Source: a virus. Taken from it: 64,000 nucleotides of DNA. Positions 67 through 16,576 of the stretch are shown here, piece after piece. Under the pieces are notes generated by a model. That model saw only the letters and a list, made by a program, of their open reading frames with translations, searched no databases and was not told the DNA's origin. Within the stretch, counting starts at the first letter, position 1; the number at the start of each line of letters is the position of its first letter. The position numbers and the translations under genes are program-made. The DNA is taken from IMG/VR virus record IMGVR_UViG_3300031730_000002, positions 1 to 64,000 of that record. The stretch is one strand, 5' to 3'.

Positions 67-92
67 GTCGTTCTCCTTTGAAGTGTTGAGGG

Positions 93-744: not shown

Positions 745-758
745 CGTTACGTGTAACG
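745..758. repeat. short palindrome CGTTAC-gt-GTAACG
   Basis: Perfect 6-bp arms around a 2-base centre, 60 bases from the 644-683 dyad. The half-site CGTTA also occurs in the CGTTATGT / ACATAACG elements at 1220-1258. It may be a binding site for a phage regulator; this is inference from symmetry only. Confidence 0.35.
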
Positions 759-803
759 TATATCCTTCGTCACTTTTGGACATCATCCTCTTTTTGGACG
801 AGG

Positions 804-830
804 AAAAAGTGATCTGGAAAATCACTTTTT
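804..830. terminator. bidirectional hairpin terminator
   Basis: AAAAAGTGAT (804-813) pairs perfectly with ATCACTTTTT (821-830) around a 7-base loop, giving a stem flanked by A and T runs in both directions. It can end minus-strand transcription coming from the genes at 901-1184 and any plus-strand read-through. The stem is not GC-rich, so efficiency is uncertain and an operator role is the alternative. The rest of 530-900 holds no gene that I accept. Confidence 0.5.
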
Positions 831-900
831 CGTAGTTTCAAAAGAGGGCGCCGTTTTTAAATCACCTTCGGGTATTACGGGTAGTACTGGGTTGTTATTG

Positions 901-1044
901 TTATGAAGCGAGCACGGACAGGGTGATGACGGTTATCAACAGGCTTGCGAGGGTCGCAGCTTGCTCGAATGGCATGGGTGTCAGGGCCGGATAGAACAGG
1001 CTTGCGGCTGCGAGGATCGCAGTGCAGAAGTGGCGGGGGCGCAT
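901..1044 (-). CDS. small predicted membrane protein, 47 aa
   Basis: MRPRHFC then two hydrophobic stretches (about residues 7-20 and 30-47), so probably an inner-membrane protein with two short segments. It starts 5 bases after the stop of the upstream gene and has no clear ribosome-binding site of its own, which fits translational coupling. Function unknown. The second copy of the 16-bp DnaA-box-like repeat lies inside its 3' part (929-944). Confidence 0.4.
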   Translation of the reverse strand: MRPRHFCTAILAAASLFYPALTPMPFEQAATLASLLITVITLSVLAS

Positions 1045-1049
1045 GGGTG

Positions 1050-1184
1050 TTAGGCCACGCGCAAGCCGTCGCGCCAGGCTTGCGGCCGGTAGCCGTGCCG
1101 GCTCAGGTAGTCCATGGGCGCGAGGCTCGTTGCGGGCAGACGGCGCTCGAACCCGTCGAAGGTCCAGAAAACGATCGTGTACAT
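1050..1184 (-). CDS. hypothetical protein, 44 aa
   Basis: The ATG at 1184 is preceded by GGAG with about 8 bases spacing, which decides this start over a longer open frame reaching 1241. The protein starts MYTIVFWTFDGFERRLPA and ends in a basic tail with a tyrosine- and arginine-rich part (SRHGYRPQAWRDG). No family recognised. The paired ACATAACG elements lie just upstream (1220-1258) and could control it. Confidence 0.5.
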   Translation of the reverse strand: MYTIVFWTFDGFERRLPATSLAPMDYLSRHGYRPQAWRDGLRVA

Positions 1185-1214
1185 GGTGAGGGCTCCAAAA
1201 TTTCGAGGGGCGCG

Positions 1215-1329
1215 AGTTGACATAACGTGCGGCGTGCGCATCGATCAAACCGTTATGTAGTTGGGTTCACAGCGACGCCGCGCCTATGGCGGTCGTGTGG
1301 AATCGGAAAAGTTGTCAGTTGACATAACG
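1215..1329. repeat. AGTTGACATAACG direct repeats with an inverted partner
   Basis: The 13-mer AGTTGACATAACG occurs at 1215-1227 and 1317-1329, 102 bp apart. Its ACATAACG core (1220-1227) also has an exact reverse complement, CGTTATGT, at 1251-1258. The elements sit upstream of the minus-strand gene starting at 1184, where a repressor or activator would bind. Each repeat contains TTGACA, a consensus -35 box on the plus strand, but I see no convincing -10 box at the right distance. Confidence 0.45.
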
Positions 1330-2024
1330 CATGAGCATGCGCAAACCGCAGGGCTTGCGAATGCTCGCGCATTCGGGAATGCAGCGGCGCGCCTGGTTAA
1401 CTTTCGTTCCAGCGGTGCGCGGCTGTTAGGGGGCAAGGACCAGTGTTTTCGGAGTCCTTGTCTCGGCATTCCTACTAGATAGCACTCACGCGAGAAGTAC
1501 CAGACAAACGAGTCTCGGTGCTCTTGGTGCGTATAGACATCCGCGACGATTCATAGCCTTGAGAGCGTGTCTCAGCTGGATAAGGTGGTTCTGTCGTGTG
1601 TATCACTCAGGCAGAGTCTTTGTCCTGTTGCGGCGCTCAGGTCCGCAGGGTCTTTCATTGGCCGGGATGTTCACTCACTAGATGCAGCGTGCGCCTATAC
1701 GGTCCGGGCGACGTGGTTTCGGGTGAGTGCTTTCTAGTCGCACCTGCATCGATCGTTCACACGTCTAATGCAGCGTACTTGCGTGACTAGGTTTGAAGTA
1801 GTCAGCTAATCGGTGGCTGTAGAGATTCTGTCCTAGTCCTGTTTGCAGGGTTGTTAGTCAAGCATCTAAGCGGATAGGCAAAGATGAAACGAGACGAACG
1901 CGCCCGCTAGTAAGACTAGCGTTAGGTCTACAGCACATTGTTAGAGAGCGTCTAGGGGGTTAGGTGCGCCGATTAGAGGGACAAACCTCTAGCGGGTTAC
2001 CTCACTGCCTAGTCTGCTATGGCG
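1330..2024. other. gene-free, CTAG-rich structured region
   Basis: I find no convincing gene here: open frames are short and lack ribosome-binding sites. Two kinds of structure stand out. First, small perfect hairpins: CGAATGC/GCATTCG at 1358-1375, CAAGGAC/GTCCTTG near 1434-1460, and CGCTAG/CTAGCG at 1905-1921. Second, the tetranucleotide CTAG, usually rare in bacterial and phage DNA, occurs about a dozen times between roughly 1470 and 2075. The composition looks less GC-rich than the flanking genes. A non-coding RNA, packaging or replication site, or decayed DNA are all possible. Confidence 0.5.
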
Positions 2025-2045
2025 CGGCCGTTAGGCCGGGCTTTT
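2025..2045 (+). terminator. possible plus-strand terminator
   Basis: CGGCC-gtta-GGCCG (2025-2038) followed by GGCTTTT forms a short GC-rich hairpin with a T-run at the end of the gene-free region. It would stop plus-strand transcripts before the minus-strand gene at 2110. Confidence 0.4.
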
Positions 2046-2047
2046 AA

Positions 2048-2103
2048 GGTGCAGAGCACTAGCTCGGAGCTAGTGCTCTGCACCCTACTGGCGTAGGGTG
2101 CAG
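2048..2103. repeat. two overlapping perfect palindromes
   Basis: GGTGCAGAGCACTAGCT (2048-2064) pairs perfectly with 2068-2084, a 17-bp stem with a 3-base loop. CTGCACCCTAC (2078-2088) pairs perfectly with 2093-2103, an 11-bp stem with a 4-base loop. The two share CTGCACC (2078-2084), so only one can form at a time in a transcript. They lie directly after the stop codon of the minus-strand gene at 2110 and probably end its transcript, although no long T-run follows. Confidence 0.6.
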
Positions 2104-2109
2104 CGGGGT

Positions 2110-2793
2110 TTAGTGCGTTAGCGCGAGTGCCGCGCTCTGCGACACTTCGCGGGCTTGCACGTCGATGACATCGGCCTGCGGGGTGACATCCGCATAGAAC
2201 TCCGAAACGAGTGCATCCAGCTGCAGGCCTGCGTCGATGTTGCCCGATGCGAGCGCGGCGCGGATGAACGCGAACGCGTCAGCCAGTGTGAGGGGGATCG
2301 GCTGCGCGGCGGCCTTGGCGGCCTTCTCTGCAGCCTTGGCGGCCTTTTCCTTGGCGGCCTTGGTAGCGGCGGCCTTTTCCTTGCGCTCTTCGCTGGCCTT
2401 GTCAGCGGCAAGCCCGGCCCGGGTGCATTCGGAGTCGAAGGCTTCTGATGCGATAAGTGAGAGTTCAGCCGCGCGCACCTCTGCATCGGGCTTTGCCATC
2501 GGCTGCGCTGCATGCTGCGCTACTGCGGCTGTATAGGCGCCCTGCATGACAGTGAGCACGCGGGCAGCTTGCGCGGCGGCGAGCTTGCGCTGGGGCTTGC
2601 TTCCTTCCAATTGGCCTTCGATGCTGGCCAGTGAGGTGAGCACCTCGATTGTGTCGTTCAGGTTGCGCTTGTTGCCATCCTTCAGGATGTAGACCAGTGT
2701 TTGCGTGAGTGCTGCGAACGCCTGTTCGTATTGCACCTCACGGGCGCCAGCGAACGCGAGAATGGCGGGAATGGGCTTCAATTGTGCGGACAT
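2110..2793 (-). CDS. alanine/lysine-rich coiled-coil protein, 227 aa
   Basis: The start at 2793 has GGAG about nine bases upstream; the frame is open further but without a better start. Residues 1-100 look helical. Residues about 130-165 are an A/K/E-rich repeat (AAKAAEKAAKAAA type) predicted as a long coiled coil or single helix, followed by a compact C-terminal part (about 166-227). No signal peptide or membrane segment. I recognise no family; histone-like or structural roles are only guesses from composition. It is the largest gene of the left minus-strand block and ends at the palindromes at 2048-2103. Confidence 0.6.
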   Translation of the reverse strand: MSAQLKPIPAILAFAGAREVQYEQAFAALTQTLVYILKDGNKRNLNDTIEVLTSLASIEGQLEGSKPQRKLAAAQAARVLTVMQGAYTAAVAQHAAQPMAKPDAEVRAAELSLIASEAFDSECTRAGLAADKASEERKEKAAATKAAKEKAAKAAEKAAKAAAQPIPLTLADAFAFIRAALASGNIDAGLQLDALVSEFYADVTPQADVIDVQAREVSQSAALALTH

Positions 2794-2888
2794 GGTACGG
2801 ACTCCAGTAGAGGGGGTTGCATGCGCTAGGTGAGGCATGGCAGGGCGTGTGCACTGCGGTATAGGCTCATGCCTATACCGCATGGCAC

Positions 2889-3071
2889 TCACCCCATGAG
2901 TGCGAACATGAGGCGACCGAGCCACGAGAGGGGGCGCGGTTCAGGGTAGCGCAGGGTATATGGGGTGCGCTGGCGCAGAGGTGCGGGTTGTGTGAACGTG
3001 GCGCCGATGCGTGGCGCATTGTGTTCAGCGTATGCCACTAAGGCCGTGTGTTCAGCGTAGTCGAATCGCAT
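2889..3071 (-). CDS. hypothetical protein, 60 aa
   Basis: The ATG at 3071 is chosen because GGAG precedes it at good distance (TAGGAGTAACGCG); the frame extends to 3155 without a ribosome-binding site. The N-terminal half has a repeated YAEH pattern (DYAEHTALVAYAEHN) and the C-terminus is hydrophobic (SWLGRLMFALMG), perhaps membrane-associated. First gene of the left minus-strand operon, next to the divergent region 3157-3492. No family recognised. Confidence 0.5.
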   Translation of the reverse strand: MRFDYAEHTALVAYAEHNAPRIGATFTQPAPLRQRTPYTLRYPEPRPLSWLGRLMFALMG

Positions 3072-3156
3072 CGCGTTACTCCTATTTGTTGGGCCAATGA
3101 CAACGCCACCGGCACAGACCCTATCGCATACGCTGTGCCAGCCCTGTTTAGGCATT

Positions 3157-3492
3157 AAAACAACGCTATTCTGACCATTTACGTCACATTGGGGGCCATG
3201 CCAAGACGCAAAACGTCAGCTCCATGACAAGGAACGTCACTTTGCGTACATGTTGACACTGTTTGTTACATGCACGCTGTCCTGGTGGCCGGGGCAAGGA
3301 CAAGACCGGGCCGGCGTTCGGGTCGGAGTGACAGGCCTTGTCCTGTTTCCCTGACAGGGGCGCGGACGGGTAGGCTTTCTTGGGGGAGTCGGAGGCCTGG
3401 CCCTACCCAACCCCTCCCGCCATATGAAATATTTTTCCAAACTTTCCTACACACCCCGTATTTTTGTCACCCTACGTGCCACAATCCGTCGC
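3157..3492. other. divergent intergenic region with ACGTCA repeats
   Basis: No gene is supported here. The hexamer ACGTCA occurs three times in the same orientation at 3181, 3213 and 3234, and TTGACA lies at 3253-3258 on the plus strand without a clear -10 box. The minus-strand genes start to the left and the terminase operon to the right, so promoters and operators for both should be here. The ACGTCA copies are candidate regulator sites. Confidence 0.4.
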
Positions 3493-3792
3493 ATGGAGAT
3501 CTCGCGTAAAGACCTGGCCGCCCTGCAGGCCCGCCGCATCACCAAGACCGCGCTCGCGGCCCATCTAGGCGTCAGCGCCACCTACCTCATGCGCATCACG
3601 CCACCGCTGCCGCCCGGCCCCGTGGCCGCGCAGCGGCGCGCGAACTCGACCTTCGCCGAGAGCCGGAAAGCGTTCCGCGCCCGACTGGCCAAGCAGGTAC
3701 TCGCCGGCAGCAAGTCGATAACCAAGGCCGCGGCCGAAGCCAAGTGCTCCGAACGAACCATGTACAGGTATCTATGCAAATCGACGAAGTGA
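3493..3792 (+). CDS. helix-turn-helix DNA-binding protein, 99 aa
   Basis: Two stretches look like helix-turn-helix motifs: about residues 15-35 (TKTALAAHLGVSATYLMRI) and about 75-95 (ITKAAAEAKCSERTMYRYL). The protein is basic and small. As first gene before the terminase subunits it could be a regulator of the late operon or a DNA-recognition partner for packaging. Start choice is uncertain: the frame opens at an upstream ATG (3424) and neither ATG has a clear ribosome-binding site; 3493 is preferred because homology-like sequence begins there. It overlaps the next gene by 19 bases. Confidence 0.6.
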   Translation: MEISRKDLAALQARRITKTALAAHLGVSATYLMRITPPLPPGPVAAQRRANSTFAESRKAFRARLAKQVLAGSKSITKAAAEAKCSERTMYRYLCKSTK

Positions 3793-3971
3793 GCACGCCA
3801 GTACTGCCCGGCAGACCTTACTTCTATACTGCCCTGCAGCTGGAGGATTACGACTTCCTGGTATCAGGCCCATCCGGTCCCGATAAGCACAAGGTCATCG
3901 CCGAGATCTACCTCTATCACGGCCTCGTTCGCGCAACCATCATCCACGCATATGTCCCTTACCTCACCTGA
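3774..3971 (+). CDS. hypothetical protein, 65 aa
   Basis: Begins MQIDEVSTPV and overlaps both neighbours (19-20 bases each side), as expected in a compact operon. Aromatic-rich with alternating polar and hydrophobic residues, so probably a small beta protein. No motif recognised. Its position between the HTH protein and the putative small terminase suggests a role around DNA packaging, but this is context only. Confidence 0.5.
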   Translation: MQIDEVSTPVLPGRPYFYTALQLEDYDFLVSGPSGPDKHKVIAEIYLYHGLVRATIIHAYVPYLT

Positions 3972-4389
3972 CAAGTCGCCGCTGATTCCGCGGGTGCCCT
4001 TTTCTCCGACCACGCAAAAGCAGGTCGAAGATCTGGAGGACAAACTCGCAGAGATGGAGGATGAAGCCGATATGGTCGATGCAGACCCTGGCAAGGAAAC
4101 CCTCATCTCGATCGATATGCTGGCCGAGACCGTGCAGCTATACCGCAGCACCAAACGCTTACACCGTCGCGCGATCCAATTTGACAGCAAGGCACCGCTG
4201 AATCAGCAGGCACAGGTGGTCAATAGCCTCGGCGGCTTGCTGAAGTCTCTCGCTGCCTTGCAGATTCGCCTGTATGACAGCGAGCGGCTGAAGAAACTTG
4301 AAACCGCACTCATTGAGATGCTGAGCGACTTGCCGGTGGAGCAGCAGAACACCTTTTTGGCCCGCTATAAGGAATTGACGGATGTTTGA
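3952..4389 (+). CDS. putative terminase small subunit
   Basis: A 145-residue, largely helical and acidic protein with a predicted coiled coil around residues 22-45 and a helical C-terminus. It overlaps the large terminase gene by 8 bases. In tailed phages the gene directly upstream of the large terminase usually encodes the small subunit, which binds the packaging site and feeds DNA to the motor. The size fits, but I see no clear N-terminal helix-turn-helix, so the HTH protein at 3493-3792 is an alternative candidate for the DNA-recognition role. Confidence 0.5.
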   Translation: MSLTSPDKSPLIPRVPFSPTTQKQVEDLEDKLAEMEDEADMVDADPGKETLISIDMLAETVQLYRSTKRLHRRAIQFDSKAPLNQQAQVVNSLGGLLKSLAALQIRLYDSERLKKLETALIEMLSDLPVEQQNTFLARYKELTDV

Positions 4390-6049
4390 GGGTCACTTCG
4401 AGCGCATTCGCGCGGCTGTGCAGAAAGAGTATGGCCTCGGTACTGTGCCGGAGTGGATCTGCAAGCACACAAAGCTGGGTGGCAAGCCCTACAGCTACAA
4501 GAATCACGAGTTTCAGCTGCAGATTCTGCGTGATCAGAGCCCTGAGAAGATCATTCGCAAGTGCTCACAGGTCGGTTTGACCGAGTTGAGCTTCCGCGAG
4601 GTGCTCGCGATACTGCGAATCATCGACGGCTTTACCGCGATTTACACCATGCCGAGTGCCACTGACATGGCAAAAGTGGTGCAAACACGCCTCGATCCGA
4701 TCGTGACAGGCAGTGCTGACCTGACATATGCGCTCTCTTCGAGCGTGGATTCGGCCATCGTGAAGCAGTTTGGCCTCAGTTTTCTCCATTTGTCGGGTAC
4801 TTTTGGCCAACAGCAGGCCATTTCAGTGCCTGCGGACATGGTTGTGCACGATGAGGTCGATTTCAGCAATTTGAAGGTGCTGACGACCTACGAGTCACGA
4901 CTCACGCACAGCAAGTACAAGATGCGGCGCGAGTTCTCGACTCCGACGCTGCCAGGGCGCGGGATCTCAGCCCGATTCGATCGATCGCGCCGCCATTTCA
5001 ATATGGTGAAGTGCCATCGCTGCAATCACTGGTTTTTGCCCGACTATTACCTGCATGTGAGGGTGCCGGGGTACGACGACGACCTGAAACTGATCACCAA
5101 CCGCAATCTGCACCACTACGACTGGCGGCATGCGGCGCTGCACTGCCCGCACTGCGCTGGAATTCCGAGCTTGCAGCACGAGAACCGCAACTGGGTGCTC
5201 GAAAATCAGAATGAGAACTACACCGCGGCAGGGTATGCGGTGTCCCCATTCGACGCGCCTAACATCATCTCGACTCCGTTCCTGGTGGAGAAGTCGACAA
5301 AGTACGAGCGCATTGCCGACTTCGTCAATTTCAATCTCGGGCAGCCGTATGAGGACGCGACAGTAAGCCTGACCGACTCATTCCTGCGTAGTTTGTTCGT
5401 GCCAGGCAGCCCACCAACGAGTAGTGCCAATTTCATGGGCATCGACATGGGCGCTTTGTGCCATATCGTTGTCGGGAATGCCCAATCGACCGGCGAGTTG
5501 GTGGTTTTGCACTACGAGCGGGTGACTTTGGCCGATTTCGAGCGGCGCAAACGCGAGCTTGCGATCGAGTATCGAGTGCTTGTGACGGTGATGGATGCCT
5601 TGCCGTATACCGACATGGTAATGCGGCTGCAAATTAGCGACCCGAATTTGTTCGGTGCGATCTATCTCGACATGAAGAATATCGTCACCTATGCGGTGAA
5701 GGACCAGCGAAAAGACCCTGAGAAGGGCAAGTTGAACATCCGGCAGGTGCAAATCAACCGGAATGTGGCATTCGACGACATGGTGCAGTCGATTATTCGG
5801 CGCGAGGTGGTGTTTTTCGACCGACCGGAGAAGGACATCTTCATTGCGCACCTGTTGGACATGAAGCGGCAGACAGTATCGGACTCGAATGGTGAGCTGG
5901 TGTACAAGTGGATTAAGTCGGAGCAGGGGGACGACCACTTCATGCATGCGATGATGTATCTCTACACCGCGTGCAAGCTGCGGGCGCTGACGACGGGCAG
6001 TGCGCCGATTCAGACGCTGATTTCGAGCTTCAGGGTCAAAACCATGTGA
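4382..6049 (+). CDS. terminase large subunit (GpA-like)
   Basis: ATP-driven DNA packaging motor and nuclease that cuts concatemers and fills proheads through the portal. 555 residues. The ATP site resembles lambda gpA: a deviant Walker A (KCSQVGLTE, 60-68) with lysine at its start instead of before Thr, and Walker B MVVHDE at 153-158. Two CxxC pairs (C211/C214 and C255/C258) form a likely zinc site seen in GpA-type proteins. The nuclease domain shows the expected acidic residues D355 (GIDMG), D405 (VMDALPYT) and D517/518 (GDDHFMHA). GpA-type terminases usually make cohesive ends. Followed by a 67-base gap, then portal. Confidence 0.92.
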   Translation: MFEGHFERIRAAVQKEYGLGTVPEWICKHTKLGGKPYSYKNHEFQLQILRDQSPEKIIRKCSQVGLTELSFREVLAILRIIDGFTAIYTMPSATDMAKVVQTRLDPIVTGSADLTYALSSSVDSAIVKQFGLSFLHLSGTFGQQQAISVPADMVVHDEVDFSNLKVLTTYESRLTHSKYKMRREFSTPTLPGRGISARFDRSRRHFNMVKCHRCNHWFLPDYYLHVRVPGYDDDLKLITNRNLHHYDWRHAALHCPHCAGIPSLQHENRNWVLENQNENYTAAGYAVSPFDAPNIISTPFLVEKSTKYERIADFVNFNLGQPYEDATVSLTDSFLRSLFVPGSPPTSSANFMGIDMGALCHIVVGNAQSTGELVVLHYERVTLADFERRKRELAIEYRVLVTVMDALPYTDMVMRLQISDPNLFGAIYLDMKNIVTYAVKDQRKDPEKGKLNIRQVQINRNVAFDDMVQSIIRREVVFFDRPEKDIFIAHLLDMKRQTVSDSNGELVYKWIKSEQGDDHFMHAMMYLYTACKLRALTTGSAPIQTLISSFRVKTM

Positions 6050-6116
6050 TGTTCCACGTGAAGCAGTCTTCTCCCGCTATAGCCTTTCCCATCGGCTTCT
6101 GCAATACTCCCTGCCC

Positions 6117-7637
6117 ATGAACCTGCTCGACAAACTCACCTCCTTTCTGGCGCCCAAGCCAACGGCATGGGACGGGGTGGTGACGGAAGCGGCGAGCACG
6201 GCGCTGCCGGTGCAGGCGCCGCCGAAGGTCAAGCCCAAGCAGCAGTCGGTGCCGCCGTTCTCGCCGCAGGTCAAGCCGGGCGAGGCCGTGCTGGTCAAGG
6301 CCGACCGGCAGCTGGCCAACACGGACATCCTCAGCTACCGGCGCAGCGCGACGACGGGCGCGACGCTGCGCGACTTGGTGGTGGCAAGCCCCGACCTGTC
6401 GGCGGCGGTCTCGGCCAACTTGCGGCTGGGCATCACCGAGAGCTACATCCTGAAGGCGTGGAATCCGGACGGCAGCTTCAACGCCGACGCGACGCGGCTG
6501 GCCTACCAGCTGCTCATGCGCATGGACCTGGTGCCGGACTACACGCAGGGCTTCAACGTCACGAACAGCTTGCTGGCCACGTCGGAGGCGCTGGCCAAGG
6601 ACATGATGACCTACGGCGCCATGGCGATGGAGCTGGTGCTCGACTCGTCGCGCCTGCCGGCGCAGTTCGTGCCGCTGAGCAGCAGCCAGATCTTTTTCTT
6701 CCCTGAAGACAAGGGTGTGCGGCCGGTGCAGCGGATCGCTGGTGTCGACATCGACATGGACCAGCCGACGTTCTTCTACCTCTCGCTCGATCAGGACTTG
6801 CTGACCGCCTACGCCACGTCGCCGCTCGAAGCAGCGATTCAGCCGGTGCTGGCCGACAGCGAGTTCACGAACGACATGCGCCGGGTGATCAAGCGCGCGG
6901 CGTTCCCGCGGCTGGACGTGGAGATCGACGATGAGCTGATGCGCCAGTCGATCCCGCCCGAGATCTTGAACGACCCGGTGAAGCTGACCGACTACCGCAA
7001 CACAGTCACTCGGGCAGTGTCCGACGTGGTCAACGGGCTGGCGCCGGAAGATGCGCTGGTGCACTACAGCTTCCTGAAGGTCAGCTACATCGAGGGTGGC
7101 ACAGGCCCGGTCGAGCAGACGTTCCAGGGTGTGCAGGATCTGATCAACGCCAAGCTGTCGACCGGTGCGAAGGTTCTGCCGAGCGTGCTGGGTCATGGCA
7201 GTGGCAGCCAGAACGTCGCGAGCAGCGAGACGCTGCTGTCGATGAAGACGGCAGACGGCCAGATCCGCCGCAAGCTCAACGAGATGTACAGCAAGGCGTT
7301 CACGCTGGCTGTGCGCCTGTTCGGCATGGACGTGTGTGTCGAGTTCACCTACCGCCCGATCAACCTGCGCCCGACCATCGAGGTCGAGGCGTTCGAAGCG
7401 CAGCGGCAGGCTCGGATTCTGGAGCTGCTGTCGGTGGGCATGATGGGTGACGAAGAGGCTTGCCTGGAGCTGACCGGCAACTTGCCGCCGGCAGGGTTCA
7501 AGCCGCTGTCGGGCACGATGTTCTACAAAGCCGATGCTTCAGTGCCGGCCGGCTCGGAAAGCTCGACCACCGGCGGCTTGAACCAGGCGATCACGAGCGA
7601 TGCGCCGAAGGGCAAGCGCGGAGGCAACGGCAAATGA
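6117..7637 (+). CDS. portal protein
   Basis: 506 residues, directly after the terminase and two to five genes before the protease and capsid genes, the usual place of the portal. It should form the dodecameric ring at one prohead vertex through which DNA enters and leaves. The sequence shows the helical, acidic stem-and-wing character of portals, including an N-terminal region on antirepeat helices (about 60-140) and a central part with many aromatic residues. The C-terminus is a low-complexity basic tail (PKGKRGGNGK). No clear ribosome-binding site precedes the ATG. Family assignment is by context and overall look, not by a short motif. Confidence 0.82.
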   Translation: MNLLDKLTSFLAPKPTAWDGVVTEAASTALPVQAPPKVKPKQQSVPPFSPQVKPGEAVLVKADRQLANTDILSYRRSATTGATLRDLVVASPDLSAAVSANLRLGITESYILKAWNPDGSFNADATRLAYQLLMRMDLVPDYTQGFNVTNSLLATSEALAKDMMTYGAMAMELVLDSSRLPAQFVPLSSSQIFFFPEDKGVRPVQRIAGVDIDMDQPTFFYLSLDQDLLTAYATSPLEAAIQPVLADSEFTNDMRRVIKRAAFPRLDVEIDDELMRQSIPPEILNDPVKLTDYRNTVTRAVSDVVNGLAPEDALVHYSFLKVSYIEGGTGPVEQTFQGVQDLINAKLSTGAKVLPSVLGHGSGSQNVASSETLLSMKTADGQIRRKLNEMYSKAFTLAVRLFGMDVCVEFTYRPINLRPTIEVEAFEAQRQARILELLSVGMMGDEEACLELTGNLPPAGFKPLSGTMFYKADASVPAGSESSTTGGLNQAITSDAPKGKRGGNGK

Positions 7638-7960
7638 CCACGCCGATGCAGATCGTCGAGCACAAGCGCGGCGACACCTTCAACCCGACTTGCACGTACC
7701 TGAATTCGGCAGGAGTTGCCTACGACTACACGCTTGACGGCATCACGATCGCGAGTCAGGTGCGTACTCCGGCTGGTAAGCTGGTTGGTACTCTGACTGC
7801 GGCACCCGGTGTCGGCACGGGAGTATTCACGCTGGAGTCCGGAAGTACTCAAAATTGGCCTCTCGGCTCACTGCGCTGGGACATACAATTCACCCAAGGC
7901 GGCCACATCTTTTCCACCAAAACGGCAGAGCTGATGCTTGTGGCCGACAACACCCTGTAA
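7634..7960 (+). CDS. beta-sandwich virion-associated protein, 108 aa
   Basis: Starts at an ATG overlapping the portal stop (ATGA). Pattern of alternating strands (IVEHKRGDTFNPTC, ASQVRTPAGKLVGTL, SLRWDIQFTQGG) resembles small immunoglobulin-like or baseplate/fibre attachment domains found in phage structural proteins. It is the first of four adhesin- or fibre-like genes placed between portal and protease. Function unknown; a fibre-anchoring or head-decoration domain is plausible. Confidence 0.55.
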   Translation: MTTPMQIVEHKRGDTFNPTCTYLNSAGVAYDYTLDGITIASQVRTPAGKLVGTLTAAPGVGTGVFTLESGSTQNWPLGSLRWDIQFTQGGHIFSTKTAELMLVADNTL

Positions 7961-7972
7961 ACGGAGAATCGC

Positions 7973-8401
7973 ATGTCCAAGTCAAATACCTACGAAAACG
8001 ACCTCCTGCTTTTGCTGTTCAATGCGACAGCGATCGCGAACGTCGCGGACAATGCCGCCAGCTCTCCGCTGACCAACCTGTTCGTCGCGCTGCATACCGC
8101 CGACCCCGGCGAAGCTGGCACGCAGACCACGTCCGAAGCGACCTACACGAGCTATGCCCGTGTCTCTGTCGCCCGCACCGCGGGTGGCTGGACGGTGGCT
8201 GCCAACTCGGTCTCGCCGGTGGCGACGATCTCGTTCCCGGCTTGCACGGCCGGCACCAACACCATCACCCACTTCTCGGTGGGTGCGGCGACCAGCGGAG
8301 GCTCGAAGATCTTCTACAGCGGCACCGTGACGCCGAACATCAGCGTGAGCACCGGTGTGACGCCGCAGCTCGCGACCAGCTCGACCATCACCGAAGACTA
8401 A
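7973..8401 (+). CDS. virion fibre-like domain protein, 142 aa
   Basis: A short N-terminal helix (NTYENDLLLLLFNA), then beta-rich sequence with LFVALHTADPG, YARVSV, a THFSVGAATSGG segment and a final Thr/Ser-rich strand. The same order of elements occurs twice in the 290-residue protein at 32587-33459, so the three domains are probably homologous. These domains are common in phage structural or fibre proteins of unknown detail. It has an AACGGAG-type ribosome-binding site and is followed by a hairpin terminator. Confidence 0.6.
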   Translation: MSKSNTYENDLLLLLFNATAIANVADNAASSPLTNLFVALHTADPGEAGTQTTSEATYTSYARVSVARTAGGWTVAANSVSPVATISFPACTAGTNTITHFSVGAATSGGSKIFYSGTVTPNISVSTGVTPQLATSSTITED

Positions 8402-8419
8402 GTCTAGGGCCTGGTGGCG

Positions 8420-8454
8420 GCACAGGCTGAGGCTGGTCCTCCAGCCTGTGCTTT
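8420..8454 (+). terminator. hairpin terminator after the 142-aa gene
   Basis: GCACAGGCT (8420-8428) pairs with AGCCTGTGC (8443-8451), with an inner GAGG/CCTC extension, followed by TTT. It lies between two structural genes, so it would lower rather than abolish expression of the following fibre genes. Confidence 0.5.
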
Positions 8455-8472
8455 CGCGTATCTGGAGTAAAC

Positions 8473-9738
8473 ATGCTGCTGCTCAATTCCGCCACGATGA
8501 AGGTCACGATCACCACCGGCTCTGCCGGTGACATCGAGATCGGCTGGTCGGGTATCGACAAGACCGGGACTGGGCCGGCGTCATATTCCTACGCCTCAGT
8601 GCCGACCGATGTGCCGGCGAACATCAGCGGGAGTGGCACGAACGATCTTGTGCCAGTACCAGCAGCGAGTACCGAACGCAATGTCGGCGCAATGTACGCA
8701 GCGAACAACCACGCCACGACATCGAATGCCATCACGATCCAGCTCACGGACGGCACCGACACAACGCGGCTGTGGCGCGGCACCTTGCTCGCGCAAGAGG
8801 CTGTGGTGTTCGATCAGGGCGGTGTGTGGACCGTGTACGGTACGGACGGCAACCCAAAGCAGACTGGTCAGCTTCTCGGTTTGGTGCTCGGCGCTGTTGG
8901 TGCTGCCAATCTGGCAGCATCGGATACCGACACTCTGAATGTCTTTGCTCGCAAAGTTGCTGGCTGCATGGCGCTCAAGACACAAGCACCGTCCGGTATC
9001 GAGCAGTTCTTGCAAGAGAGTTTGAGCCACAACGGCAGCTCGCTCTACTTGCCGAACAACGGCACGACGGTTGGCCTCAACACCGGGCTCGCCTGGACGA
9101 CTGGCGGCACCGTCAGCCACCCCACACCAAGCAGCACCAGCCCGGCGATCTACAACCAGCAAAAGCGCACGCGCTGGGCCAACGTCGTCACCACGACCAA
9201 TCAGGTGCTCGGCTTGCGCACCGCCACCGCGGAGAAGCGCTACTGGCGCGGCAACGCGGCAGGGCTTGGTGGCTGGTTCTTCCACGCGCGGTTTGCTATC
9301 GGCTTGTGGCCGGCGGCCACCGTGCGCCTGTTTGTCGGCTTGAACGACTCGAACTCGGGCTGGGTTATCTCCGACACGCTGACCGGCAACGGCTGCGGGT
9401 TCTGGCATGACACGACTGACGCCGCTTCGGTTCTCAGCTTTGCTACCCGAGACGGCACGACCGCCAACAAGGCGGCGATCACACTCGCCGCAAACCTTGC
9501 TGCTGGACAGTGTTTTGATGCCTACATCTACTCGCCACCAAACGGGAGCTTCATCGGTTACCGGCTGGTCGAGTTGAACACCGGCACGGTGCTGGTCGAC
9601 ACCACGACCACAACGAACATTCCACTGACGACTGCATTCCTTGGGCAAGAGCTTGCGATGTCGAACGGTACAGCCAACACCACAGTCACCACGACTGCCT
9701 TCGAGCTGTCAGGCCACAGCTGCCAGTCCGACTACTAA
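8473..9738 (+). CDS. fibre/adhesin-like structural protein, 421 aa
   Basis: Preceded by CTGGAG. The first 120 residues are Thr/Ser/Gly-rich beta strands with no enzyme motif. The centre and C-terminus (about 190-421) contain alternating aromatic and hydrophobic strands (GGWFFHARFAIGLWP, RLFVGLNDSNSGW) typical of a jelly-roll or lectin-like receptor-binding domain. It probably sits on the virion surface. Its place in the head module rather than at the tail end raises the possibility of a head fibre, but tail location cannot be excluded. Confidence 0.6.
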   Translation: MLLLNSATMKVTITTGSAGDIEIGWSGIDKTGTGPASYSYASVPTDVPANISGSGTNDLVPVPAASTERNVGAMYAANNHATTSNAITIQLTDGTDTTRLWRGTLLAQEAVVFDQGGVWTVYGTDGNPKQTGQLLGLVLGAVGAANLAASDTDTLNVFARKVAGCMALKTQAPSGIEQFLQESLSHNGSSLYLPNNGTTVGLNTGLAWTTGGTVSHPTPSSTSPAIYNQQKRTRWANVVTTTNQVLGLRTATAEKRYWRGNAAGLGGWFFHARFAIGLWPAATVRLFVGLNDSNSGWVISDTLTGNGCGFWHDTTDAASVLSFATRDGTTANKAAITLAANLAAGQCFDAYIYSPPNGSFIGYRLVELNTGTVLVDTTTTTNIPLTTAFLGQELAMSNGTANTTVTTTAFELSGHSCQSDY

Positions 9739-9748
9739 GTAGCAGCCC

Positions 9749-12700
9749 ATGAGTGCTGCCGTTCTCGTAGCTGGGGACTTCTTCTATCGCATAGCGACAG
9801 TCCCAAATCAGTTTCCGATTACTGTCACAGGTTGGATGCGCTGTGACTCGTTGGGTGCTGCCGCGTCTCCGATTTATGTTCGTTATGCCGACGCAGGCGG
9901 CAGCGAGCGATCGGGCATGTTTATCGACGCTGCTACCACAGGTGTTTTCATTGAGGGCACTTCGTCGACTGGCAACTGGAGCCCCAGTGAGCCTCGTTCG
10001 TTGGGGGTCTTCCAGCACTGGACCTATCGTAATGACGGCACCACGCACACGTTGGCTTTCAATGGCCGCGTTACCCGCGAAACAGGTGGTCAGCCGGCTA
10101 CAGACACATCCCCTTCGATCGCAATCGGAGGTGCTGGCAGCGAGTTCATCCTAGGGCAGATCTCTCGTGTCAAGGTGTGGGAAGCCATCTTGACTGACGC
10201 AGAGGTTCGCGCTGAGATGGCTTCAGTCGCACCTGTTCGTACCTCGAATCTGTGGGCTGATTACCGCTTCGCGTCGGGAGCGTTGCTTACAGACTCCAGC
10301 GGGAACAGTCGCAGCCTGACCGCGGCGACCAATCAGGTCAATGGCGCTGACGAAGTGCCTCTCGGCCCGATCATCTTCACGCAACCGGTGCGTCAGCAAG
10401 TATTCGCAGGGAAGGACGCGACCTTCAGCGTACTTGCCTACCCGAGCGCAGGTACGCTGAGCTATCAGTGGAAGCGCGATGGGGTCAATGTCGGCACCGA
10501 TAGCTCTACGTACACGCTGCCAACGAGCATCGCAGACAACGGCGCGCAGATCACAGTCGCCATCACCGACAGCAACGCAACGACAACATCAAGCGTGGCG
10601 ATGCTGGCTGTGCTGCGCACATCGCGCAGCCACGGGGCGAAGGTCAAGAAGACTCGTCGCAGCACTCTGATCGAGTACGCAAACTCGGTTGCATCGTGGT
10701 TCAGTGCTCTCCTGGTGCCCAACGGCAGCTTTGCCGATGGCATGGTGAACGCTCCGAGTGGGGCGAGCGGAGACGGCGTTGGTGCCTCAACCGGCACAGG
10801 AACAGCGACTGGTGTCGGTCAGGCTGCAACGCTGCAGCCCGGCACCGCGACTGGCTCCAGCACAGCGACAGGCGTTGGTCGAGCCAATGCGGAAGGTGTC
10901 GAGTCCGCGGCCGGCACTTCGACCGTCACCGGTGTCGGGTCAGCAGCCTTTCTCGGTGTAGCCGCTTCAACCGGAACCGGCGCAGCGGCGGCCGATGGCC
11001 GATCGCTCTCGACGCAGGTCGCCGCCGCGGCTGGTACGAGCACGCCGACTGCAGTCGGCCAGTCGACCACGGTCGAGCCTGGTGCTTCGACCGGGGCAAG
11101 CACAGCAACAGCCACAGGCCAGACCAGCGCACTTGCGGACGCGGCCTCGGCCGGCATCTCGACGGTCTCTGGAGTGTCTCAAGCGATCTCGATCGCAGAC
11201 GGCGCTGCCGCAGGCACCAGCACAGCCACTGGTGTGGGTGCGACCGAGCAGGTCGCGTCGGCTGCAGGCACCAGCACTGCGACTGCAGTAGGTCAATCGC
11301 TCGCGATCAGCGACGGCGCGGCGCCGGGCACCAGTACTGTCACCGGCGTCGGGCAGGCAGCAACTGCTGCTGTTGCTGCCGCGGACGGCATTGCAACTGC
11401 GACTGCAACCGGGCAATCGCTCTCGACACAGGTCGGCTCGGCTGTAGGCACTAGCACTGCGGACGCTACGGCGGGAGCGTCGATCGGCGCTGCCGCAGGC
11501 GCGAGCACGCCACTTGCGGTTGGCCAAGCCCTCTCGACGCAGGTCGGCGCGGCAGCAGGCACCAGCACAGTGGCAGCCACGAGTGACGCACTTGCGATTA
11601 GCGTGGGCTCGGCCGCCGGCACCAGCACAGCGGCTGCTGATGGTCAGACGACATCGATCGCTACCTCAGTCGGCGCCAGCACAGTTGCAGCCGATGGCCG
11701 ATCGCTCTCGACGCAGGTCGCCAGCTCGACCGGCACCGGTGCAGCTACCGGCGTCAGCAGCCAAGCCGGCACAGGCAACGCTGCGGCAGATGGCACCAGC
11801 ACCGCGACAGCGGTTGGGCAGTCGCTCTTCACAGGTGACGCGAGCGCGGCAGGCACCAGCACAGTCCAGGCTGATCGGCTGATGCTGGTTGCGGCAGTTG
11901 CCAGCTCGATCGGCGCGAGCACGGTATCTGGTGTCGGTGAGGCGCCGGCTGCAGGCGTCGCCGCGGCGACCGGTACGAGCACTGTTGCTGCTGCAGGCGA
12001 GTCGCTCTCGACGCAGGTTGCCAGCTCGACCGGCACGAGCACGGTGCTCGGGATCGAGCAAGGCGCGGCGTCGGTCGCTTCGTCGAACGGGGCTGGCGAT
12101 GCTGCGGCTGTCGGCCAGTCGACCGTCGATGCAGTTGTGGCCGCAGCCTCGACCAGCACTGTCACAGGTGATGGTCAGGCGCTGGCGCGCGCTGACGCGA
12201 GTGCGGCCGGCACCAGCACTGCGCAAGCGTCACCGTCTCTGCTGAGTGTCGCGAGTTCGAGCGGTGTCAGCACGGCCGCGGCCACCGGGCAGTCGATCGC
12301 TGATGCCACGGCAGCAGCGGCTGGCGCGAGCACGGCTGCAGCGGACGGCGCCCCACTTGCGATCAGCGTTGGGGCGGCGACAGGCACGAGCACGGCACTT
12401 GCCGACAGCCAGGCGCCAGCGGTCGGCACCGGCGCAGCAGCAGGCACGAGTACTGTGCAGGCCCAGCCGGCGCTGCTTGGTGTTGCTTCGTCGGTCGGGA
12501 CTGCTGCGTCGGTCGTTGTCGGTCAGGCCAACGCGCTCGCAACAGCCGCTGCTGCCGGGTCGAGCACCGCTGATGCGCTGGGTGTCCAGCAAGGGCAGGC
12601 TGTCGCACAGTCCACCGGCGCAGGCACTGCGCTGGCAGTCGGCGCGCCGCTGGCAGTCGCTACCGCAGCGGCAGCAGGCAGCTCGACCGCACTTGCGACA

Positions 12701-13321
12701 GCGAACGCGCCGAGTGTTGGCTCTTCTGCAGGTTCGAGCACGGCGAGTGCCGGCGGCATCATGGCCATCCAGGCCGTTGCCACGAGCGCTGCAGCTGCAT
12801 CGGATACTGCGGTCTCCGACGCCATCGCGCTTTTGGTGGCCACGGCTTCAGGGTCGTCTATCGCCGCTGCGGTGTCCGATGCTATCGCGTTGATGGTGGC
12901 CACGGCAGTCGGGTCTTCTGATGTTCAAGGCTACCCGAGCAGCTCGGCAACATCACCCGCGACTGCCGCAGGCACCTCGACTGCTCAGGCTGTTGGCCAA
13001 AGCGCGCTGACCGGTGTCGGCAATGCGGCAGGGTCTGCGACAGTTCTCGGTTACTGGCAGAAGTCGGGCTATATCGACGTTTCTGTGTCGATCGCACCGC
13101 GGCTCACGCCGAAGATCAACGTGGCATTCCAGAACTTCAGCGGTGTGCGCGTGGTGCTCGCGTCTTCGGCCGGTCGGATTCAGGTTGATCTGCCAGCTCA
13201 AGGCGGGAGTACCTTTACTGGCTTTGGTCACCGCACGACTTACCTGCTGATGCCCACGCAGCAACTCGTGCTTGAGTACGCACCAACTGCGTTTCAACTG
13301 CAGCCAGCTTCTCAGGTCTGA
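9749..13321 (+). CDS. giant repeat adhesin: LamG-like, Ig-like and 20-residue repeats
   Basis: 1190 residues in four parts. Residues about 10-190 look like a LamG/concanavalin-like carbohydrate-binding domain. Residues about 205-290 look like an immunoglobulin-like domain (strand pattern FSVLAYPSAG, SYQWKRDG, ITVAITDSN). Residues about 345-1100 are about 39 copies of a roughly 20-residue repeat with core AAGTSTATAVGQS, almost free of charge and rich in Ala, Gly, Ser, Thr and Val. Residues about 1105-1190 form a distinct beta-rich C-terminal domain. The repeats would suit an elongated beta-structured shaft. No signal peptide, so it is likely a virion protein. The ATG has no strong ribosome-binding site. 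The same repeat recurs in the tail gene at 26510-27370. Confidence 0.75.
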   Translation: MSAAVLVAGDFFYRIATVPNQFPITVTGWMRCDSLGAAASPIYVRYADAGGSERSGMFIDAATTGVFIEGTSSTGNWSPSEPRSLGVFQHWTYRNDGTTHTLAFNGRVTRETGGQPATDTSPSIAIGGAGSEFILGQISRVKVWEAILTDAEVRAEMASVAPVRTSNLWADYRFASGALLTDSSGNSRSLTAATNQVNGADEVPLGPIIFTQPVRQQVFAGKDATFSVLAYPSAGTLSYQWKRDGVNVGTDSSTYTLPTSIADNGAQITVAITDSNATTTSSVAMLAVLRTSRSHGAKVKKTRRSTLIEYANSVASWFSALLVPNGSFADGMVNAPSGASGDGVGASTGTGTATGVGQAATLQPGTATGSSTATGVGRANAEGVESAAGTSTVTGVGSAAFLGVAASTGTGAAAADGRSLSTQVAAAAGTSTPTAVGQSTTVEPGASTGASTATATGQTSALADAASAGISTVSGVSQAISIADGAAAGTSTATGVGATEQVASAAGTSTATAVGQSLAISDGAAPGTSTVTGVGQAATAAVAAADGIATATATGQSLSTQVGSAVGTSTADATAGASIGAAAGASTPLAVGQALSTQVGAAAGTSTVAATSDALAISVGSAAGTSTAAADGQTTSIATSVGASTVAADGRSLSTQVASSTGTGAATGVSSQAGTGNAAADGTSTATAVGQSLFTGDASAAGTSTVQADRLMLVAAVASSIGASTVSGVGEAPAAGVAAATGTSTVAAAGESLSTQVASSTGTSTVLGIEQGAASVASSNGAGDAAAVGQSTVDAVVAAASTSTVTGDGQALARADASAAGTSTAQASPSLLSVASSSGVSTAAATGQSIADATAAAAGASTAAADGAPLAISVGAATGTSTALADSQAPAVGTGAAAGTSTVQAQPALLGVASSVGTAASVVVGQANALATAAAAGSSTADALGVQQGQAVAQSTGAGTALAVGAPLAVATAAAAGSSTALATANAPSVGSSAGSSTASAGGIMAIQAVATSAAAASDTAVSDAIALLVATASGSSIAAAVSDAIALMVATAVGSSDVQGYPSSSATSPATAAGTSTAQAVGQSALTGVGNAAGSATVLGYWQKSGYIDVSVSIAPRLTPKINVAFQNFSGVRVVLASSAGRIQVDLPAQGGSTFTGFGHRTTYLLMPTQQLVLEYAPTAFQLQPASQV
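10781..13053 (+). repeat. tandem about 60-bp coding repeats (about 39 units)
   Basis: The DNA encoding the AAGTSTxTGVGQS-type repeats. Most units are 60 bp (20 codons), with some of 51-63 bp. Units are diverged at DNA level, with changed third positions and varied linkers, so the array is old and under protein-level constraint, not a fresh slippage expansion. Confidence 0.8.
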
Positions 13322-13356
13322 CCTTTTGACCTACACTTCGCGAAACTGGAGAGATC

Positions 13357-14157
13357 ATGTGGCGTTTCGGTAATCTGTGGGCGGGTAACGAGGCGTCTTA
13401 CGAGGCCCTGATCGCTGTCAGTGCGCAGGTATCTGCGATGATTGGCTCCGGTCAGCAGGCCCCACTGCCGGAACTGCTGCACATCGATTCAGGTGTGGGC
13501 GTCGTGAGTATCGAGGGTGCTTTGATTCCTGGCGATGCCGGGTTTTATTCGTACTTCGGGTATGTCGGCTACAACGACATTCGCACCGCTGCAATGGCAG
13601 CGGTGATGAATCCCGACGTGAAATCCATCATGCTTCACATGAACTCGCCGGGTGGCGCAGTCGACGGCTGCCAAGACTGCGCCAACATGCTTGCGCAGAT
13701 CTCGTCGCTCAAGCCGACGATGGTTTTCGCCGACAACAGCCTCGGATCAGGCGCTTACTGGCTTGCAACTTCGGCCGGGAAGATCTTCATCAGCACCACG
13801 ACCGAAGCTGGCAGTGTTGGCGTGATCGCCAAAGCGGCCGAGTACAGCAAGGCGCGTGCAGCAGCCGGCATTACCGACCTGGTTGTGCGCTCTGGCCCTT
13901 ACAAGCAGCTGATCAATCCGGTCGAACCGCACAGCGATGCAGGTATTGCGATGCTGCAAGAGCGGGTGAACGCAATTGCCGATGTGTTTTTGGAGCATGT
14001 CTCTGATGCACGCGGTGTTTCGGCCAAGCAATTCGATGCGACAATGGGCCAAGGACGAGTATTCACCGGCGCGAAAGCGGTCGCAGTGGGAATCGTCGAT
14101 GGTCTCGCTACATACGATTCCGCACTTTCTGCCGCAATACTCATTCAACCCCGTTGA
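13357..14157 (+). CDS. S49 family prohead protease
   Basis: 266 residues resembling SppA/S49 serine peptidases used by phages to remove scaffold and process capsid proteins. The nucleophile is likely S131 in GSGAYW, after the oxyanion region MNSPGG (95-100). The general base is likely K183 in SGPYKQ, 52 residues later, the same spacing as in bacterial SppA. Preceded by CTGGAG. Placed between portal and the scaffold-like gene, the standard order. There is no fused scaffold domain: the scaffold seems to be the separate next gene. Confidence 0.88.
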   Translation: MWRFGNLWAGNEASYEALIAVSAQVSAMIGSGQQAPLPELLHIDSGVGVVSIEGALIPGDAGFYSYFGYVGYNDIRTAAMAAVMNPDVKSIMLHMNSPGGAVDGCQDCANMLAQISSLKPTMVFADNSLGSGAYWLATSAGKIFISTTTEAGSVGVIAKAAEYSKARAAAGITDLVVRSGPYKQLINPVEPHSDAGIAMLQERVNAIADVFLEHVSDARGVSAKQFDATMGQGRVFTGAKAVAVGIVDGLATYDSALSAAILIQPR

Positions 14158-14182
14158 CAGTCGTGTACCTGCTAGTCAGAAT
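14154..14182 (+). promoter_or_regulatory. sigma70-like promoter before scaffold/capsid genes
   Basis: TTGACA (14154-14159), 17-base spacer, CAGAAT (14177-14182). The -35 box overlaps the protease stop codon. It would give extra transcription of the scaffold, decoration and major capsid genes, which are needed in large amounts. Confidence 0.5.
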
Positions 14183-14206
14183 ACGCGGCAACGTACTGGA
14201 GCCCAC

Positions 14207-14830
14207 ATGCTGAAGAAAACCACTCTGAGCGCTGCAGCAATTGCTGCAATCGCATCTGGCGCACCGCTCCCTGCCGATACCAATCTGGCCGCGGCCGACA
14301 CAACCGGCGGGGAGCAGCTTGACGCTGCTGCTGTTGCCGCTGCTGCCGCGCTCGCTGCTGGTGCCGCGAAGACCCCCGAACAGATTGCTGCCGACGAGGC
14401 AGCTGCTGCTACTGCCGCCGCAGCCACTGCCGCCGCTGCTGCAGGCACCGCCGCGACTGCCGAGTCCGAGCTGGTGAAGTTCCTGCGCACCGAGCTGTCG
14501 ACTGCGCAAGCGACGATCACTGCCAACGCCATCAAGATCTCGACGCTCGAAGCTGCGTCGACCGGCATGGCCGCGACTCATCCGAAGCTGCTGGAGATCG
14601 CGCGTGGCGCGGTCAAGAAGATGCGCGTCGCGCTCGGCGCATCGGGCGACGGTGCCGATGTGATGTCGGCTGAAGAGGCCATCACCGCGCATGCCGAGAC
14701 CAGTGCGACCTTCGCCAAGAAGTTCGTTGTCGGCGGTGCCGCGGCGACCAGCTCTTCGGCTGAAGAGTCTGCCCAGCAAGGCCCCAACGTCATCCCCCTG
14801 TTCATCCAAGCGGCCAAAGCCGCCAAGTAA
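14207..14830 (+). CDS. putative scaffold / prohead core protein
   Basis: 207 residues, started at the ATG with CTGGAG upstream (the frame is open far upstream but overlaps the protease). Strongly alanine-rich and helical, with a low-complexity acidic A/T/E region (about 40-90), a coiled-coil-like segment (about 88-120) and a charged C-terminal half. Scaffolding proteins are typically helical, compositionally simple and encoded between protease and major capsid, so this is the best candidate. No sequence motif proves it. Confidence 0.62.
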   Translation: MLKKTTLSAAAIAAIASGAPLPADTNLAAADTTGGEQLDAAAVAAAAALAAGAAKTPEQIAADEAAAATAAAATAAAAAGTAATAESELVKFLRTELSTAQATITANAIKISTLEAASTGMAATHPKLLEIARGAVKKMRVALGASGDGADVMSAEEAITAHAETSATFAKKFVVGGAAATSSSAEESAQQGPNVIPLFIQAAKAAK

Positions 14831-14839
14831 GGAACTCAC

Positions 14840-15313
14840 ATGAGCCGCGCCTTCTACCGTCAAGAAATCCTGGCGACCCAAAACGCCCCGGTCACGTCCC
14901 GACTGGGCCTGGTCAGCGCGCCCTACGGTGCGACCGAGATCGGCAAGTTCGTCAAGAACGGCGCCGAGTCGGCCCACATCCTGTGCGCCGCCGGTGATGC
15001 CATCGAAGGCTACATCGCTTCTGTCGAGTCTGCCACGTCGGCTGGCTTCGGCATCGGTGCAGTGCAGCAGCGCGACCCGAAGTTCGTGACCTTCGACGGC
15101 TTGCAGGCCACGCCCGGCACCGGCACCGTGACCATCGGCTCGTATGTCGTGTGCGGCACGGTCGTCGCCAAGGACACCGCGCTGACCGCTTACGCGAAGG
15201 TCTGCAAGGCCACCACCGAACCGCCTGCCGGCCCCTACGCATGGCGCGTGGTGTCGCTGGGTTCGGTCGGCACCGGCGCTGTTGGCACCACTGGTCTCAT
15301 CGAGCGCGTCTAA
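14840..15313 (+). CDS. putative capsid decoration protein, 157 aa
   Basis: Starts 9 bases after the scaffold gene with GGAACTC upstream. Glycine- and valine-rich beta pattern with short strands (TVTIGSYVVCGTVVA) and no catalytic motif, resembling small head-decoration or stabilising proteins placed directly before the major capsid gene in many siphoviruses. Probably binds the outside of the expanded capsid. Assignment rests on position and composition. Confidence 0.6.
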   Translation: MSRAFYRQEILATQNAPVTSRLGLVSAPYGATEIGKFVKNGAESAHILCAAGDAIEGYIASVESATSAGFGIGAVQQRDPKFVTFDGLQATPGTGTVTIGSYVVCGTVVAKDTALTAYAKVCKATTEPPAGPYAWRVVSLGSVGTGAVGTTGLIERV

Positions 15314-15355
15314 GCGCACCCCGTCACCGTTCTCTCAAACACCAAGGAGCCCACG

Positions 15356-16576
15356 ATGGGTGCGAAGTTTTTCAATGCTGCTGGCGCGATCCAGGACGTC
15401 GATCTGCCTGCGAGCATCTACTCGCTGGCTTCCGCCGCGAACCGGTCCGTGGCCGCCTACATCAACTCGAAGTACGAGACCGATGAGGCCAAGTTCGGTA
15501 CGACCTTCAACCAGATGCTTGCCGCGGCTGGCCTGCTGGTTCCCGATCCCAAGGTGCAGAAGAACTTCGGCCTCCGCGCGCCGATGATGGCCGACGTGCT
15601 TGCGGGCACGGTCGACTTCTCGGCTGCCTCGAACAGCCAACAGTTCGGCAATGCCGCACCGTCCACCGGCACCTCGCGCACCCTGTTCCCGGCCGCACTG
15701 ATCGCCTACATGGAGACGGCGCTCGTCAAGAACTACGAGATGGACGCCGCGGTGTTCGATCAGATGGTCGCGACCGACTTCTCGATCAACGGTGACCGTT
15801 TCGAGCAGCCGCAGATCAACATGGCCACCCTGAACGGCCCGAACAGCGCGCTGGCTTCGCGCCGAGCGCAGCTCGCCGGCCCGGCCGCGATGATGCAGTT
15901 CACGACTTCGGACGTGACCCGCAAAATCCCGACCTACGCACTGGGCATGGAGTTCTCGAAAGAGGCTCTCAAGGCCACCACGCTGGATCTGGTCGGCATG
16001 TCCGTCAGCCGTCAGCTGATGGTCGAGCGCGACTCCTGGGTGAACTCCTACATCAGCGACATCTACGCTGGTGACCTGGACATCAACACCGGTTCGCTGT
16101 CTTCGCTGGGCTACTCGGTGAACACCAGCACGCTGGACGCGACCGCGACCACGACCATCACGCAGAAGGCGTGGCTGAAGTGGCTGTTCCGCAATCGCAA
16201 GTACCGCATCATCAACTGGGTGATGTGCGACCTGGCGACGTACCTGCTGATCGAAGGTCGCACCGGTCGTCCGTCGCTGACCGCGATCGACATGACCCTG
16301 CCGCGTCTCGACCCGCAAGCGCGGATCGTCAACGGCGTCATCGGCGACGTGAAGGTCTTCATCGTCGACGATGCGAGCGCTGGTGGCCCGCTGCCGGCCG
16401 GCACCGTGCTGGGCTTGGACAGCCGCTACGGCATCGCACGCGTGCGCAACGCGAGCGCTGACGTGTCGGCCGCCGAGAGCTACGCTCTGCGCCAGACCGA
16501 AGCCTTCATGGTTCAGTTCGCCGAGATCTGCTACCGTCTGCACCCCGACGCCTTCGACACCCTCGTGGTGGCGTAA
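15356..16576 (+). CDS. major capsid protein
   Basis: 406 residues, with a strong AAGGAG ribosome-binding site. It follows protease, scaffold and decoration genes and precedes the connectors, the usual place of the HK97-fold capsid protein. The sequence has an N-terminal helical arm, a long mixed alpha/beta core and a C-terminal part with strands such as VFIVDDASAGG and GIARVRNASADV that fit the A-domain. A coliphage-like lysine/asparagine crosslink cannot be judged. High confidence by context; no short signature exists. Confidence 0.82.
   Translation: MGAKFFNAAGAIQDVDLPASIYSLASAANRSVAAYINSKYETDEAKFGTTFNQMLAAAGLLVPDPKVQKNFGLRAPMMADVLAGTVDFSAASNSQQFGNAAPSTGTSRTLFPAALIAYMETALVKNYEMDAAVFDQMVATDFSINGDRFEQPQINMATLNGPNSALASRRAQLAGPAAMMQFTTSDVTRKIPTYALGMEFSKEALKATTLDLVGMSVSRQLMVERDSWVNSYISDIYAGDLDINTGSLSSLGYSVNTSTLDATATTTITQKAWLKWLFRNRKYRIINWVMCDLATYLLIEGRTGRPSLTAIDMTLPRLDPQARIVNGVIGDVKVFIVDDASAGGPLPAGTVLGLDSRYGIARVRNASADVSAAESYALRQTEAFMVQFAEICYRLHPDAFDTLVVA

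Follow-up and report, generated by a model that had tools for sequence, protein, structure and literature searches.

A phage-biased 20-residue repeat family linked to Gp80 and its possible role in a virion appendage

Between its portal and S49 protease genes, a virus known from a stretch of 64,000 nucleotides (the window, taken from a virus record of 85,865 bases) encodes a protein of 1190 residues that carries a long array of one short repeat. This raises the question of what such a protein, here called the payload, does, and where on the particle it might be placed. The source virus infects bacteria, and the tail genes, including that for the tape measure, stand 3' of the head genes. The features discussed below are collected in Table 1.

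Table 1. Positions of the genes and protein regions considered in this study, numbered along the window.
Feature	Position	Strand	Basis or match
Terminase gene	4382-6049		profile matches
Portal gene	6117-7637		profile matches
Small protein, 108 aa, first cassette gene, candidate docking piece	7634-7960	+	54% identity to L206 gene
Gp80 homologue, 142 aa, candidate fibril or tether	7973-8401	+	PF23140, 4.8e-16
Fibre-like protein, 421 aa, shared N-terminal adaptor module, possible second payload	8473-9738	+	phrog_13925, 1.1e-21
Payload protein, 1190 aa, ATG start	9749-13321	+	ORF list
LamG domain, residues 23-153	9815-10207	+	Laminin_G_3, 2e-11
Ig-like domain, residues ~207-289	10367-10615	+	5lxk match; L002, 42%
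Basic linker with hydrophobic stretch, residues 290-345, common to L002	10616-10783	+	alignment with L002
Repeat region, residues 346-1095, 31 scored 20-residue units, ~37 units long	10784-13033	+	autocorrelation and matrix
C-terminal part, residues 1096-1190, candidate tether or tip	13034-13318	+	
S49 protease gene	13357-14157		profile matches
Major head protein gene	15356-16576		profile matches
3-4 copies of the same 20-residue repeat, end of gene 26510-27370	27077-27286	+	

An exact 20-residue period in the payload protein

The open reading frame and the 20-residue periodicity described in a first-pass annotation of the sequence were both recovered, the latter as an exact period extending across 750 residues. 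Within the repeat region, identity was 0.33 at lags of 20 and 40, whereas the highest value at any lag in 200 shuffles was 0.19. When a 20-position matrix built from the repeat family was applied, 31 units with a score of 568 were detected, while shuffled residues yielded no more than 3 units and a score of no more than 21. The annotated number of about 39 copies was slightly high, since 31 are clear by the matrix and ~37 fit into the 750 residues; the majority of copies are degenerate, with a length of 18 residues in some. The array had also been described as uncharged, but residues 346-1120 are weakly acidic (25 D, 7 E, 6 R and 1 K). Identity is raised at even lags and not at odd lags, which is the signature of an extended beta zigzag, and the family consensus has G, A or S at most even positions and often T, V or I at odd positions.

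GC-rich, low-complexity DNA might give a periodic reading frame by chance, and long open reading frames in other frames do overlap the repeat region, while the serine-rich model NF033849 matches the payload protein weakly (21 bits against a cut-off of 650, a match that was set aside as composition). Against this explanation, amino acids agree at 35% of positions at lag 20 but at only ~10% at lags 19 and 21, and residues that agree at lag 20 use the same codon in 36% of cases, compared with 33% expected from codon usage. Synonymous sites are therefore saturated while the protein pattern is kept, indicating that the period is held by protein-level selection and not by recent DNA duplication; Tandem Repeats Finder detected one short array only within the gene. 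Together with the shuffles, this refutes a composition artefact, to which we assign almost no weight, and the closest relative of the window (L206) moreover has a LamG homologue with the same architecture.

The repeat had not been recognised as a named family, and we find it covered by neither a Pfam model nor a useful PHROG model; a literature search by residue names returned nothing relevant. A tblastn search of phages with the whole payload protein gave no match, probably because low-complexity filtering strips the repeat, and relatives were sought with DNA patterns instead. The repeat pattern was present in at least 118 viral stretches, some of which are not true repeats, and a stricter pattern with a 60-base period was present in 54. 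Four or more scored units were found in 78 sequences including the window, ~53 of which are distinct by shared DNA words. Repeat-type proteins are also carried by two IMG/VR contigs (L033 and L063) that seem, from their names, to be isolate genomes. When the stricter pattern was applied to 84,980 bacterial and archaeal genomes, none of the 46 matches contained the family repeat and many were five-residue repeats, although rare prophage copies could escape such a search.

The inserted cassette and the domains of the payload

Four genes separate portal from protease in the window, encoding the 108-residue protein, the Gp80 homologue, the fibre-like protein and the payload. The payload gene had been assigned to the head module, and it does sit between portal and protease, but as the last gene of an inserted fibre cassette with Gp80. 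L206 (terminase 53%, portal 57%, head protein 70%) shows the order portal, small protein (54%), Gp80 (81%), a 779-residue LamG-repeat protein and protease, and is without the 421-residue fibre-like gene. Two distant relatives, Pseudomonas phage Lana and Vibrio phage SHOU24, have related portal, terminase and head proteins; in both, the protease directly follows the portal and the cassette is absent; Gp80 was searched for in both genomes and found in neither.

The Gp80 homologue scores 59.7 bits against the PF23140 (Gp80) cut-off of 27 and matches PDB 8jou_a (2.8e-7); a further match to a chain named RBL4 was set aside as composition. The 108-residue protein has a weak match to phrog_1084, a family of unknown function. 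The N-terminal module of the fibre-like protein is 43% identical to that of its counterpart in L002. The same module occurs in MW202497, L057 and L068 as well as in L002, and resembles a widespread adaptor of phage fibres, while the C-terminal part relates to proteins of Flavobacterium phage 11b and Microcystis phages. The L002 locus (5389-8046) has the same gene order and Ig-linker, but a 24-residue repeat of the GHITATGHQPTVVRT type; the type of repeat seems exchangeable.

The LamG domain of the payload was confirmed with Laminin_G_3 (PF13385; 44.7 bits, curated cut-off 27.6), a match obtained with the isolated N-terminus and absent from the listing of the whole-protein scan. The domain is 41% identical to L014/L206, and a search of viral contigs with LamG alone detected no relative. 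An Ig-like domain had been annotated as well and is weakly supported, the label being based on the match of residues 218-285 to the Ig domain of T5 pb10 (5lxk, E 4.5e-4); the immunoglobulin model PF13927 reaches 14.5 bits in the payload, below its Pfam cut-off of 30. The homologous domain in L002 reaches 28.8 bits with this model, and the Ig-like domain and linker together are 42% identical between the two proteins. AlphaFold2 gave a pLDDT of 35 for the LamG-Ig segment, using an alignment of 4 sequences only. The C-terminal 125 residues had no relative among the viral contigs.

Linkage to Gp80 and likeness to known appendages

To evaluate the association between repeat and Gp80, we considered loci for which 5 kb or more of upstream sequence was available, leaving out L001, a copy of the window. 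Gp80 was encoded upstream on the same strand in 14 of 15 repeat loci, and it was found in 7 of 66 loci without four repeat units, several of the 7 having shorter or weaker repeats. The Gp80 proteins of repeat loci form 26 clusters at 80% identity, so the linkage does not derive from one lineage. A search of another 34 records over their whole length placed Gp80 above the cut-off in 16, most of them repeat contigs in which the shorter stretch had been blank. The reverse test used phage genomes found by Gp80 alone, which comprised eight distinct cases after removal of near duplicates and with a cyanophage pair counted as one. A period-20 gene was clearly present nearby in three of them (MW202711, Mae-JY04 and LR756502), borderline in Lacusarx, and absent from the vicinity in the other four, indicating that Gp80 does not require the repeat and also serves other payloads. 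The repeat, for its part, usually accompanies Gp80.

In the cultured Microcystis phage Mae-JY04, the gene directly after Gp80 encodes WWT39678.1, a hypothetical protein of 625 residues with a beta-type N-terminus followed by the same repeat (10 scored units), and with no LamG or Ig match. Fibre I of the Ralstonia podophage GP4 is gp80 (PDB 8JOU), and the homologue in the window is by sequence a member of PF23140; GP4 is a podovirus, whereas the phage of the window encodes a tape measure within a gene set for a long tail. In Alishewanella phage LSH1, gp34-gp36 are virion proteins by mass spectrometry, gp34 being the payload, gp35 a dimeric match to GP4 8JOU_g, the fibril that joins the adhesin to the tail collar, and gp36 a small protein with an Ig fold (PMC13243795, 2026). 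Only about half of the genomes related to LSH1 carry its module, and the C-terminal region of its payload is badly predicted by AlphaFold, for which the authors wonder about a repetitive motif and consider disorder, leaving the cause unexplained (PMC13243795).

A Gp80-like protein beside a large payload, as in an LSH1-type module, is found in the window. Both modules combine a large payload with an adhesin-like N-terminus, a Gp80-like fibril and a small protein, but the N-terminus is lyase-like in LSH1 and LamG-Ig in the window, and gene order differs. The LSH1 authors do not describe the 20-residue repeat. In a relative of LSH1, Slickus01 (L213), the payload (2314 residues, 8380-15321, minus strand) adjoins a Gp80-like gene (E 8e-4), and a clear 20-residue period extends across its last ~800 residues, with quite different residues of the DKSTFDVSDISNAYISMTVD type. 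Judging from this relative, the badly predicted region of the LSH1 payload is likely a period-20 repeat as well. Three similar domains are also present in the Slickus01 payload, and no similarity was detected between the small protein of Slickus01 and the 108-residue protein of the window.

We consider it probable that the payload is the adhesin of a virion appendage in which Gp80 is the tether and the repeats form a long beta-type shaft, the genes for this appendage being inserted between portal and protease. By analogy with GP4 and LSH1, the 108-residue protein or Gp80 would dock to the neck, collar or head, and Gp80 would act, as in GP4, as the fibril that tethers the payload to the virion. 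The ~37 repeats might then project as a shaft that gives reach, as suggested by the sequence and a low-confidence model, while LamG and Ig, from what is known of these families, would contact surface glycans. The first-pass annotation had suggested carbohydrate binding and anchoring for LamG and Ig; they look like the outward-facing part, and attachment to the virion is more likely to involve Gp80 and the small protein than these two domains.

The payload could also be a capsid decoration protein or head fibre, in which the capsid is bound by the Ig domain or the parts around it and Gp80 is a mere neighbour. T5 pb10 and T4 Hoc resemble the payload in having an Ig-like domain, a neighbourhood of head genes and presumed surface contact, but have neither LamG nor the 20-residue repeat. 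Among PDB entries the Ig domain is matched best by pb10 itself, and Ig decoration proteins help adhesion to the host (PMC7602432). However, the LamG-repeat protein of L206 has no Ig domain, yet cassette and site are kept, and the repeat accompanies Gp80 at other genomic places in many phages, which speaks for the two being partners. We therefore regard decoration of the capsid as improbable and continue to favor the tethered adhesin.

Fold and reuse of the repeat

An AlphaFold2 model of eight units, obtained with a gap-free family alignment of 22 rows, contained a strand of 14-15 residues and a turn of 5 residues per unit, and this strand-turn pattern recurred in nearly every unit, with pLDDT 60 and pTM 0.51. 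No significant match to the model was detected with Foldseek in PDB or BFVD; the non-significant matches were mostly beta-solenoids in PDB and mostly uncharacterised phage proteins in BFVD. The repeat region is likely beta structure, for which solenoid, meander or partial disorder are all possible. The beta-structured shaft of the first-pass annotation is thus supported as to its beta character, while the geometry of a shaft is suggested by a model of modest confidence. The likeness to trimeric autotransporter heads found no support, since sequence matches are lacking and the Foldseek matches are insignificant; YadA-like head repeats were not recognised, the repeat region having no Pfam match. 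Beta-solenoids such as FHA, curli, FapC, ice-binding proteins and the YadA head likewise repeat at a short and exact interval, with small residues alternating with beta-branched ones, but no sequence similarity to the phage repeat was found.

The low complexity of the region, with A, S, T and G making up ~70% of its residues, and the modest AlphaFold2 confidence would also suit a flexible disordered linker, the state weighed by the LSH1 authors for their own region (PMC13243795). A finding of disorder only had been named as a refutation of the beta shaft, and the model gives a strand-turn pattern, yet at pLDDT 60. A linker would hardly explain why an exact 20-residue register is held across many phages while synonymous sites are saturated, why identity is raised at even lags, or why the period persists in Slickus01 although the composition differs. 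A disordered linker is accordingly doubtful in our view, and a folded shaft is preferred. More tentatively, and with less confidence than in the appendage itself, the repeat may be a phage-specific beta fold of its own, with about one long strand per unit and a silk- or amyloid-like face of tiny residues, which LamG, Ig-like, glycine-rich, lyase-like and tail proteins alike would use as an exchangeable shaft; the badly predicted region of LSH1-type payloads would be an instance of this fold.

The repeat recurs at the end of a second gene in the window (26510-27370), the first after the tape measure, whose product matches phrog_384, a virion structural protein. Homologues of this gene occur in L086, L097, L099 and L131, loci that were brought in by the same repeat pattern. 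Its presence at the end of a virion gene supports a virion role for the repeat. The repeats in this gene are followed by YLLLEDGVSYLLLEDGVSKLILG. The tail-tip gene 32587-33456 encodes two Gp80 (PF23140) domains, which with the Gp80 of the cassette makes three in this phage.

The principle of such an appendage is already known from GP4 and, since 2026, LSH1; what is new is an unnamed, phage-biased 20-residue repeat family, its linkage to Gp80, its reuse on a tail gene, and the likelihood that the badly predicted part of LSH1-type payloads is the same kind of repeat. Absent from libraries of protein families, and undetected in bacterial genomes by the signature applied here, a repeat present in dozens of distinct phage genes would mark a widespread and overlooked virion appendage. 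It could supply a recognisable signature for the LSH1-type module and predict which hypothetical proteins are surface adhesins, and as a very regular building block of 20 residues its fold should be directly solvable.

The N-termini of repeat proteins vary, and include LamG, glycine-rich and other beta-type domains as well as short leaders. By eye, an apparent SGNH-hydrolase-like domain lies between two repeat blocks in L192 (1407-3977, minus strand), and the N-terminal part of the L201 protein (1-6288) appears kelch-like; 48 units were scored in the latter, and the strand of many of these contains tryptophan (STVSWVGEQ). Short repeat proteins of 300-345 residues in L035, L047, L111 and L207 have a tryptophan-containing tail of short PPVSTWNDIAPP-type units.
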